Position numbers and translations under genes: made by a program. The notes under the pieces are model-generated. The model was given only the letters and a program-made list of their open reading frames with translations. It made no database searches and was not told the origin of the DNA. Shown piece after piece: positions 43,009-51,866 of a stretch of DNA of 64,000 nucleotides. Source of the stretch: Chryseobacterium jejuense (lineage in GTDB: Bacteria; Bacteroidota; Bacteroidia; Flavobacteriales; Weeksellaceae); contig NZ_JAGIPR010000015.1 of NCBI RefSeq assembly GCF_017877355.1, positions 1-64,000 of the forward strand, read 5' to 3'. The stretch's first letter is position 1. Every line of letters starts with the position of its first letter.

Positions 43009-43180
43009 AACCACAAAAGATTTAAACACTTAAGTTTCATAAAGTAAAATAATGCTTTTCAAAAAAGAACACCTAACGTATTGAAAATCGAAGATTTTCT
43101 TCTGAAGTGCACTTATATTCAATATTTTTTAAAACTTACTTAGATGAACTAAAGTGTTTAAAATAAAAGCTTATGTGGTT
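43009..43180. repeat. 172-bp gene-less element with inverted ends (MITE-like)
   Basis: The left end AACCACAAAAGATTTAAACA (43009 on) and the right end, reverse-complemented, AACCACATAAGCTTTTATTT followed by TAAACACTT (to 43180) are inverted copies with a small insertion. The AACCACAAAAG tip is the same as the 20-bp ends of the element at 50537-51021. The interior has no open frame. It fills much of the 415-base gap after hmgA; the rest holds the terminator at 43253 and a promoter at 43294. Confidence 0.65.
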
Positions 43181-49277: not shown

Positions 49278-50525
49278 ATGAAATCATTTGTAGACTATTC
49301 CTCAAACTCGGATTTTTCTATACACAATATTCCTTTCGGAGTAGCAGTATTCAACAAAGAATACATCGGATGCTGCACAAGAATCGGAGATCAGGTTATT
49401 GATCTTGCCACCCTTCATGATCTTGGCTATTTTGAAGACATTGAAGGAATGGACGACAATGTTTTTGAAGCCTACACGATCAATGAATTTATCGAATTGG
49501 GCAAACCTGTTACCAATGCAGTTCGTACAAAAATCCAAGCATTATTACAGGAAGGTTCAATATTATCAAAAGACCAAAAAACAATTGAAGAGGCATTTTA
49601 TGACCTTGATAAGGTAAAAATGATGATGCCGGTTCACATTCCAAACTATACGGATTTCTACAGCAGCATTGAACACGCTACCAACGTAGGAAAAATGTTA
49701 CGTGATCCTGCCAACGCTTTATTACCTAACTGGAAACACTTACCAGTAGGTTACCACGGAAGAGCTTCCTCTATTGTTGTTTCAGGAACGGATATCAACC
49801 GTCCAAAAGGTCAGATGAAACCTGCTGATGCTGATAAACCGGTTTTCGGACCATGTAAACAATTGGATTTTGAACTGGAAATGGCTTTCATCGTCAACAA
49901 AAATACGGAGATGGGAGAAAGTATTTCTACTAAAGATGCTGAAGATGCGATCTTCGGAATGGTAATATTCAACGACTGGTCTGCAAGAGATATTCAAGCT
50001 TGGGAATATGCTCCGCTTGGACCATTCCTTGCGAAAAACTTCGGTTCATCTATTTCTCCATGGGTCGTTACTCTTGAGGCTTTGGCACCATTCAGAACCT
50101 CTTCCCCTACACAGGATCCTGAAGTTTTAGATTATTTAAAATTTGAAGGTGATAAAAACTACGATATCAACCTTGAAGTATACATACAGCCTGAAAACGG
50201 AGAGCACAACCTGATCTGCGAAAGCAACTACAAATACATGTACTGGAATATGAACCAACAACTGGCTCACCACACCATCAACGGATGCAACATGGAAGTG
50301 GGAGATATGTATGCCAGCGGTACCATTTCAGGAAGTGATCCTAAATCTTTCGGTTCTTTGATGGAATTAACATGGAGAGGCCAAAATCCTTTATCATTAA
50401 GCAACGGTGAAGAAAGAAAATTCATTGAAGATAATGATACGGTTACCATGACAGCTTGGGCTGAAAAAGATGGGGTGAGAGTAGGCTTCGGTGAAGTTTC
50501 AGGTAAAATTATCCCAACACTTTAA
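49278..50525 (+). CDS. fahA: Fumarylacetoacetase
   Basis: The 415-residue hydrolase cleaves fumarylacetoacetate to fumarate and acetoacetate, the last step of tyrosine degradation. The N-terminal domain (FSIHNIPFGVAVFNKEYIGC) and the catalytic domain (DFYSSIEHATNVGKM with Asp/His, PVGYHGRASSIV, LDFELEMAFIV, FNDWSARDIQAWEYAPLGPF) are complete. Metal ligands are the Asp and two Glu/Asp in these motifs. Length is as in the FAH family (about 420). The element with inverted ends begins 12 bases after its stop. Confidence 0.94.
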   Translation: MKSFVDYSSNSDFSIHNIPFGVAVFNKEYIGCCTRIGDQVIDLATLHDLGYFEDIEGMDDNVFEAYTINEFIELGKPVTNAVRTKIQALLQEGSILSKDQKTIEEAFYDLDKVKMMMPVHIPNYTDFYSSIEHATNVGKMLRDPANALLPNWKHLPVGYHGRASSIVVSGTDINRPKGQMKPADADKPVFGPCKQLDFELEMAFIVNKNTEMGESISTKDAEDAIFGMVIFNDWSARDIQAWEYAPLGPFLAKNFGSSISPWVVTLEALAPFRTSSPTQDPEVLDYLKFEGDKNYDINLEVYIQPENGEHNLICESNYKYMYWNMNQQLAHHTINGCNMEVGDMYASGTISGSDPKSFGSLMELTWRGQNPLSLSNGEERKFIEDNDTVTMTAWAEKDGVRVGFGEVSGKIIPTL

Positions 50526-50536
50526 AAATAAGATTG

Positions 50537-51021
50537 AACCACAAAAGTCACAAAAGAATTTATGATTACATAGTCATATTTAACTGATTTGACCTATAAG
50601 ATAAACGGCGCCTGCATAGAAGTTCACAAAATTCTGGGCGCCGGTTTATTAGAAAGTGTATACCATAAATGTCTGAAAGAAGAATTCAAATTAAGAAATA
50701 TTAATTTTAAATCTGAGTTGAAAGTTCCTGTAAATTATAAAGGAAAAGAAATTGAATGTGATTTCTTCTGCGATTTTTTAGTGGAAGATTTAATTGTCAT
50801 TGAACTGAAATCAGTTGTTTAATTAAATGATATCCATCGGGCTCAACTTTTAAACTATATCAACTTAATGAAGAAGCCTAAAGGCATCTTAGTGAATTTT
50901 AATGTAAAAAATCTTTATCATAATGGACAAGAAACTTTTGTTAATAAATATTACGATATGCTTTTTTGAACTTTAAAGATCAAAACTATTTACTTAAAAA
51001 ACTTTTGTGACTTTTGTGGTT
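50537..51021. mobile_element. 485-bp element with perfect 20-bp inverted ends around a GxxExxY gene
   Basis: AACCACAAAAGTCACAAAAG (50537-50556) is repeated exactly inverted as CTTTTGTGACTTTTGTGGTT (51002-51021). Between them is only the GxxExxY gene (broken). No transposase is present and no clear target duplication is seen. The 172-bp element at 43009-43180 has the same tips. The pattern is of a non-autonomous mobile cassette, whether moved by a transposase elsewhere or by recombination. Confidence 0.7.
50589..50969 (+). pseudogene. GxxExxY protein gene broken by a nonsense codon
   Basis: The frame starts at a TTG (50589), reads TYKINGACIEVHKILGAGLL then ESVYHKCLKEEF, the GxxExxY motif (GAGLLESVYH), and the PD-(D/E)xK-like DFFCDFLVEDLIVIELKSVV. 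A TAA at 50820 stops it; the same frame then continues LNDIHRAQLLNYINLMKKPK and GILVNFNVKNLYHNGQETF to a TGA at 50967-50969, the usual family end. One change (CAA to TAA) accounts for the break. Full length would be 126 residues. GxxExxY proteins are widespread, of unknown function, and suspected nucleases. Confidence 0.82.
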
Positions 51022-51044: not shown

Positions 51045-51866
51045 ATGAAAACAGTAATTCCTTCTGAGCTAACCTCTGTACAGCTTCAGACCATCATGCA
51101 GACCGCCGTTTCACCACGTCCTATCGCATTGGCATCTACGGTGGATCAAGACGGTAATCATAACTTATCCCCATTCAGTTTTTTCAATATGTTCAGTACG
51201 GTTCCCCCGATTCTGATCTTCTCACCATCCAGGAGAGTACGTGATAATACCACGAAACATACCCTTGAAAATGTTTTGGAAATTCCGGAAGTTGTTATCG
51301 GAACAGTAAACTTTCCAATTGTACAGCAAATTTCTTTAGCTTCTACAGAATATGAAACAGGAGTTAATGAGTTTATAAAATCTGGTCTTACCATGAGAGA
51401 TGCAGATCTTGTGAAACCTAAATTGATTGAAGAATGCCCCGTAAACTTTGAATGTAAAGTTTTAGAGGTAAAATCTTTAGGCAACCAAGGTGGAGCTGGA
51501 AATCTTGTAATCTGCGAAGTTCAGAAGATTCATATCAGAGAAGAATACCTGAATGAAGCCGGAAATCTGGATCAGCAAAAACTGGATATGGTAGCCCGTT
51601 TAGGTAGTAACTGGTATTCAAGAAGTAATGAGAACAGCCTTTTTGAAGTTCCTAAACCTTTGGTAACAAAAGGAATTGGTTTTGATCTTTTACCGGATGC
51701 TATCAAATACAGCAAAGTATTTACAGGAAATGATTTAGGAATGCTGGCGAATGTTGAAGTATTACCTTCCGGAGAATATTATTCAGATGAAAATACTCAT
51801 CAGGACGCTCAAAAACTTTTGTTGGAAAGTAATATTGAAGAAGCCTGGAAGATCTTAATTAAATAA
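51045..51866 (+). CDS. Flavin reductase-like (FMN-binding split barrel) protein
   Basis: This 273-residue protein has the flavin reductase-like split-barrel: MQTAVSPRPIALASTVDQDG, NLSPFSFFNMFSTVPPILIF and FIKSGLTMRDADLVKPKLIE, all typical of the FMN-binding family. It binds FMN and may reduce free flavin for a partner oxygenase, or act on another substrate. It lies 179 bp after fahA with the inverted-end element between; it may have been the next gene of the tyrosine cluster before insertion (inference). Confidence 0.85.
   Translation: MKTVIPSELTSVQLQTIMQTAVSPRPIALASTVDQDGNHNLSPFSFFNMFSTVPPILIFSPSRRVRDNTTKHTLENVLEIPEVVIGTVNFPIVQQISLASTEYETGVNEFIKSGLTMRDADLVKPKLIEECPVNFECKVLEVKSLGNQGGAGNLVICEVQKIHIREEYLNEAGNLDQQKLDMVARLGSNWYSRSNENSLFEVPKPLVTKGIGFDLLPDAIKYSKVFTGNDLGMLANVEVLPSGEYYSDENTHQDAQKLLLESNIEEAWKILIK

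Follow-up and report, generated by a model that had tools for sequence, protein, structure and literature searches.

Putative GxxExxY nuclease genes flanked by inward iteron arrays suggest a REPIN/RAYT-like repeat family in bacteria

A 485-bp unit in the genome of Chryseobacterium jejuense is best explained, with a probability that we put at about 0.6, as a dead member of a widespread and apparently undescribed family in which a GxxExxY gene for a putative nuclease is accompanied by inward-pointing iteron arrays, in a manner resembling REPIN/RAYT systems. Many proteins of unknown function carry the name GxxExxY. The iterons read CRCNRAG in most of the phyla seen, and the genus has variants of them, among these CACAAAAG and CATTAAG. 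The data support the association of gene and arrays, the matching of the two ends, the agreement of tip types with gene clades, the dispersal of gene-less copies, turnover at individual sites and purifying selection on the protein. From this association, it is plausible that the nuclease is the driver of the repeats and not their cargo. No description of such an element was found in the literature on the family or on the repeats, within a scope that left subscription papers and preprints mostly outside.

A decayed cassette between fahA and a flavin reductase gene

The unit occupies positions 50537-51021 of the window, which is the whole 64,000-nt stretch of C. jejuense DNA that was analysed (Table 1). 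As a preliminary description of this DNA had proposed, it lies between fahA and a flavin reductase gene and is bounded by perfect 20-bp inverted ends, with the tip AACCACAAAAGTCACAAAAG present at both termini in opposite orientation and with zero mismatches. When up to three mismatches are allowed, these remain the only two occurrences in the window, versus 0.02 expected from shuffled sequence. With up to two mismatches, the genome as a whole carries 19 copies of this “A” tip, including the two of the cassette, and the backwards control gives none. Both comparisons exclude a chance origin of the inverted tips.

A profile search places a TIGR04256 match of 134.3 bits (cut-off 35) inside the unit, confirming the presence of a GxxExxY sequence between the ends, but the gene is not intact. 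Its reading frame, starting from the ATG at 50562, is broken by TAG at codon 4 and TAA at codon 87. The window gene is thus a pseudogene with two in-frame stops, and this copy of the cassette is old and dead. Four TIGR04256 matches, one of them partial, are present in this genome. Compared with the J-type gene of locus L161, the fourth copy (L012:1501-1620) is internally deleted. Elsewhere, the GxxExxY gene at L258:2001-2366 also carries a stop codon, and its arms are still strong.

The second, gene-less unit that had been noted nearby does exist, about 7.4 kb from the cassette, but it does not have the same tips as proposed. It is a composite structure of which only the outermost 11 bases equal the left tip of the cassette and whose right tip is degenerate. 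A long hairpin of -32 kcal/mol is predicted for this unit, using RNA parameters and without a shuffled control.

Table 1. Positions of the cassette, its neighbours and the nearby gene-less unit in the 64,000-nt window.
Feature	Position	Strand	Remarks
Left inverted tip, A type	50537..50556	+	Exact match; dispersed repeat
Right inverted tip, A type	51002..51021	-	Exact match on opposite strand
GxxExxY (TIGR04256) pseudogene	50562..50969	+	In-frame stops (50571, 50820); relatives have open orthologues at this site
Fumarylacetoacetase (fahA), left neighbour, outside unit	49278..50525	+	TIGR01266
Flavin-reductase-like gene, right neighbour, outside unit	51045..51866	+	PF01613
Gene-less composite unit	43009..43180		Outer tips A-like, inner tips of a different type; hairpin at the centre
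Central palindrome GAAAATCGAAGATTTTC of gene-less unit	43083..43099		Palindrome of this kind also beside the gene in cassettes of types B and C

The fahA gap in related genomes

The window site was searched for in 59 congeneric genomes, including that of the window, and was matched in all of them. Classified by eye, the gaps hold 21 A-type cassettes (the window copy included), 8 B-type cassettes (one of which, L037, is shortened), 6 C-type cassettes and, in the remaining 24 genomes, gene-less units, scars or other DNA. Tip sequences differ among the three types, although the two ends match within each type, and in the B- and C-type cassettes the gene is flanked by a palindrome of the same kind as that at the centre of the gene-less unit. 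Related cassettes with other tips (B and C) therefore account for 14 of the 59 gaps, and some gene cassette is present in 35. About 20 of the 24 gaps that lack one contain unit remnants, again as judged by eye. One locus (L075) has C-type tips with the gene missing, and the shortest gap, of 33 bp (L074), resembles a scar. In their main blocks, locus L009 of this genome and locus L226 of C. pennae are 82-86% identical, in agreement with an assignment to Chryseobacterium. Because a gene cassette occupies this gap in 35 of the 59 genomes and remnants persist in most of the others, recent insertion can be rejected, and the window copy is not supported as a freshly inserted mobile cassette.

Other DNA is also found in this gap. 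A different inverted repeat that is likewise dispersed, GCTTCGACTTCGCTCAGCATGACA... together with its complement, is present in L034, L035, L038, L042, L073, L080, L083-L086, L088, L091 and L094, often adjoining a B-type tip remnant, and two loci (L039 in G051 and L079 in G007) carry inserts of about 0.8 and 2.6 kb in place of the cassette.

Matched arms flank many GxxExxY genes of the genus

TIGR04256 matches are present in 55 of the 59 genomes, with up to nine per genome. The 146 distinct genes with flanks that were compared are part of the matches listed. With a threshold score of at least 32 for inverted arms, and with reversed but uncomplemented flanks as the control, 80 of these 146 genes have matched arms, versus 1 of 146 in the control. 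In an earlier subset of 119, also among the matches listed and with a few genes counted in two pieces, true pairs of flanks scored in 66 cases, swapped partners in 9 and the reversed control in 1. The preliminary description had named a lack of such ends in other GxxExxY genes as part of what would refute its proposal. Many of them do have matched inverted ends, so that this lack does not hold as a whole, though 30 of the 146 genes, located at two sites (26 of the L009 type and 4 at the other), include none over the threshold.

The 146 listed genes sit at only 13 sites, with nearly one clade per site; the exceptions are sufB|sufC (F and Q) and fahA (A, B and C). Tip type follows gene clade, requiring 22 changes on a FastTree phylogeny of 107 proteins from among the matches listed versus 68 with shuffled labels, although this agreement arises in large part because each clade has its own site. 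Since nearly every clade stays at one site, gene-bearing cassettes do not hop freely. Where both neighbours were found (68 genes), they are co-directional in 55 cases, and in 47 of these 55 the GxxExxY gene points in the same direction.

Inward iteron arrays in other phyla

A protein-similarity scan, of which the best 80 of 557 loci were kept, yielded 80 genes for scoring in 77 of these loci. Arms reach the threshold of 32 in 42 of the 80 genes from other lineages, versus 0 of 80 with reversed flanks and 0 of 45 for other genes; the remaining 38 fall below it. Among these best-scoring loci, the arms are CRCNRAG arrays that point at the gene, with 426 heptamers facing inward and 147 outward, and with a background of 42 on both strands in 142 distant windows. 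Inward arrays occur on at least one side of 74 of the 80 genes, and two or more heptamers are present in both arms of 50 genes when counted inward versus 6 when counted outward. Two of the 42 positives (L212 and L246) have arms that, by eye, are unlike iteron arrays. Within the same best 80 of 557 loci, two-sided inward arrays were found in 12 named phyla and were absent from the single genes of Elusimicrobiota, Fidelibacterota and Cloacimonadota.

Similar arms accompany matches on plasmids of Gemmatirosa, Bacteroides finegoldii and Bernardetia, and the arm signal is weak or lacking for plasmid matches in Fusobacteria, Persicobacter and Treponema; one Prevotella plasmid match (H6) was left out of this comparison. 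A plasmid record of Sphingomonas parapaucimobilis (L175:1483-1911) has GxxExxY between fabD and fabG with an iteron array upstream only.

GxxExxY proteins resemble a minimal Cas4-like nuclease

Four GxxExxY proteins (L237, L210, L018 and L172) match PF13366 (PDDEXK_3) at 135 to 150 bits, far above the cut-off of 22. The best Pfam Cas4 score is 18.6 bits, under its cut-off of 22.7, and PADLOC returns only sub-family-like Cas4 matches, with a best E value of 1.3e-4. An AlphaFold2 model with a mean pLDDT of 94.4 gave Cas4 SSO0001 (4ic1) as its top match by Foldseek and VIA-align (E 4.3e-4, Z 9.6, rmsd 4.3 over 100 residues), followed more weakly by Hjc-like Holliday-junction resolvases (Z about 6 to 7), AddAB and relatives of lambda exonuclease. 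A sequence search for solved structures gave no convincing one from the family itself. In an alignment of 48 proteins, D67, K79, Q91 and Y95 are invariant, E77 is present in at least 90%, and one column of cysteine is nearly invariant.

The predicted fold and the order of motifs, which are common to Cas4 and RecB nucleases, point to a minimal Cas4/RecB-like PD-(D/E)XK nuclease. Cas4 proteins have four conserved Fe-S cysteines. GxxExxY proteins differ in being only about 125 residues long, in having the single near-invariant cysteine column and in scoring below the Pfam cut-off for Cas4. They are under strong purifying selection, with median dN/dS values of 0.05 to 0.10 in seven groups, although many pairs are near dS saturation.

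Gene-less repeats and their coupling to the gene

Among 23 of the genomes from the protein-similarity scan, triple CACAGAG arrays are present in 13 and triple CACGAAG arrays in 10, and the backwards control gives none in any of them. Genomes in which the gene is flanked by CACAGAG have CACAGAG arrays in 11 of 12 cases and CACGAAG arrays in 3 of 12, those with a CACGAAG-flanked gene have CACGAAG arrays in 7 of 7 and CACAGAG arrays in 2 of 7, and four CGC-type genomes have neither; these counts include the gene's own flanks, and flank type was assigned by eye. Array numbers range widely, with two or fewer in 6 of the 12 genomes of the CACAGAG set and 101 CACGAAG arrays in Methylobacter. In three genomes (G064, G069 and G074) the commoner array type differs from that beside the gene examined.

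Within the genus, A tips occur in 55 of 59 genomes at 0 to 53 copies, with a control of 0. Their number correlates with that of GxxExxY genes (Spearman 0.46, uncorrected for relatedness), and the four genomes without GxxExxY have 5, 0, 3 and 1 A tips versus a median of 14, likewise uncorrected. The median is 17 in the 21 genomes with an A gene at fahA and 10.5 in the 38 others (p 0.004), and two genomes (G021 and G016) have 49 to 53 A tips without an A gene at that site. On independent pairs the A-tip coupling is not significant, with 2.5 of 8 in the same direction and 0.7 in the opposite one. C tips are found beyond the cassette in 4 of 6 genomes with a C gene versus 8 of 53 others (p 0.013, uncorrected for relatedness).

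For F tips, a striking first count (4.4 of 5 independent pairs) is partly an artefact. All eight F-tip matches that were opened in G013, G032 and G048 (L304-L308, L314-L316) lie in another repeat, ...GAGCCTGTTTAAATTTACCTTTTATATTTTAACATTAAGAATTTAAG..., which includes a sequence close to the F tip and is perhaps an IS end; judging from their sequence, 13 of the 15 matches in G001 probably belong to it as well. After removal of matches beginning TTTAAC, a filter chosen after the data had been seen, an F copy outside the cassette is present in 9 of 9 genomes with an F gene versus 10 of 50 others (Mann-Whitney 7e-8). Among the five supported independent pairs, 2.8 agree and 0 to 0.5 oppose, depending on the threshold, which is not significant. 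Type-specific coupling between repeat and gene is weak for both A and C; for F it is suggestive. Inverted pairs are common among the places listed, as they are in L297-L303, L309 and L311-L313.

These distributions bear on the possibility that another enzyme, such as a RAYT-like Y1 transposase or an IS, moves the repeats while GxxExxY is a passenger caught between two repeat units. Of 18 genomes tested, 15 contain a match to the Y1 transposase family that exceeds the cut-off, and the link between A-tip number and the A gene is weak, both of which this explanation would accommodate. However, Bacteroides nordii (G059) has 40 CACAGAG arrays and no Y1 match, which makes Y1 unlikely as the general mover. 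A passenger would also be expected to vary, whereas members of one gene family are faced by arms on both sides in 12 named phyla, and the strong purifying selection on the protein likewise speaks against this explanation, which we consider unlikely. In two genomes, a Y1 match lies 4 to 5 kb from the D-type GxxExxY gene (G000:C6:79773-80123 and 84325-84669; G047:C3:453449-453799 and 448908-449252).

Turnover at individual sites

The sufB|sufC gap contains a “Q” cassette in four genomes (G016, G021, G057 and G025) and an F cassette in nine, and the F and Q genes share 37-40% identity. A right arm of Q type persists beside the F cassettes; by eye, it is nearly intact in L122 and L148 and decayed in the others. 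From this arrangement, the F cassette appears to have taken over the left part of an older Q cassette. In G021 an E cassette precedes a small gene; in G029 it follows that gene, and the two genes at the alternative place overlap. G021 keeps an apparent tip remnant there. The sequences suggest a probable move of the E cassette by one gene, although the small gene may have moved instead. Where G047 has a gene-less F unit, there are only short gaps in G011 (10 bp), G021 (28 bp) and G046 (30 bp), and the genome of the window has other unit types at this place. No target duplication was seen at this gap or at the window unit, in comparisons among species too diverged for the purpose, and no excision was seen.

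Same-site replacement at fahA and sufB|sufC, together with the nearly one site per clade, could also be produced if these were host or defence genes that species had swapped through homologous recombination in conserved neighbours, with the arrays serving as handles or remaining as scars. A nuclease fold like that of Cas4 would be in keeping with a role in defence, but the PADLOC matches to Cas4 are only sub-family-like. Exchange through both flanks would leave no old right arm beside the new cassette at sufB|sufC, and the gene-less copies lie at many unlinked sites, so that we regard this account as improbable. Still harder to sustain is the proposal that the inverted arrays act in operons as hairpins for regulation or RNA processing and are not mobile DNA, which would fit the hairpin predicted for the gene-less unit and the 47 of 55 genes that follow co-directional neighbours, but not the different unit types, scars or empty gaps at orthologous positions in related species or the range of 0 to 53 A tips within one genus.

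The original suggestion that GxxExxY belongs to a family of small mobile units thus holds in so far as matched ends are widespread, gene-less relatives are dispersed and cassettes are exchanged at fixed sites, and the role of driver is plausible.

Proposed mechanism and implications

If the nuclease does drive the repeats, it would recognise the iterons of an inverted unit that is extruded or single-stranded, and would cut there. Units, most of them gene-less and served in trans, would on rare occasions enter gaps between co-directional genes. Gene-less units may arise by loss of the gene between two arms, and L075 resembles such a product. The gene-bearing copy would be held in place by selection, as are RAYT genes with REPINs.

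A broader joint reading, to which we give even odds, is that a domesticated Cas4-like mini-nuclease, present with its arrays in at least 12 named phyla, co-evolves in each lineage with inward arrays of its own and disperses gene-less inverted pairs in trans, constituting a second REPIN-like repeat class that is unrelated to RAYT/REPIN in both enzyme and sequence. Should GxxExxY prove to be the enzyme behind a miniature system of mobile repeats, the family would gain a testable role. A large class of short repeats would also be explained, namely the intergenic CACAGAG, CACGAAG, CGCAAAG and CACAAAAG arrays of Bacteroidota, Pseudomonadota, Planctomycetota, Verrucomicrobiota, Cyanobacteriota, Acidobacteriota and others. 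A second case, unrelated to the first, would moreover show if evolution generally leads to domesticated nucleases with repeat populations.

Comparison with known mobile systems

Rpn/YhgA-like nucleases (PF04754) are also of PD-(D/E)XK nature. In the catalogue entries consulted they appear as DNA-mobilising or anti-phage proteins, and PF04754 is not among the Pfam matches of the four GxxExxY proteins. Integron-like cassettes were considered as well; for these, an integrase and a single recombination site in each cassette would be expected. MITEs and small IS elements share with the present units their short length, terminal inverted repeats, intergenic location and occurrence with or without a gene. 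Unlike these elements, the units contain no known transposase, their gene-bearing copies rarely move, and no target duplication could be read among the diverged species.

The closest likeness is to REPIN/RAYT systems. In two published accounts (PMC3116915, PMC8049555), these comprise an inherited gene, each type of which is kept mostly at a single site between repeats of its own type. The repeats are dispersed, often as inverted doublets, with several gene and repeat types per genome. The trait of one inherited gene per repeat type is present here, with 13 sites and nearly one clade at each among the matches listed. The differences concern both components. The tips are iteron arrays, those of the window lacking GTAG or CGTC, and the enzyme is predicted to be PD-(D/E)XK and not Y1/HUH, with no Y1 domain among the Pfam matches of the four proteins. 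Because its enzyme would belong to another superfamily, the GxxExxY system is, by analogy, one that works like REPIN/RAYT without being a member of it.
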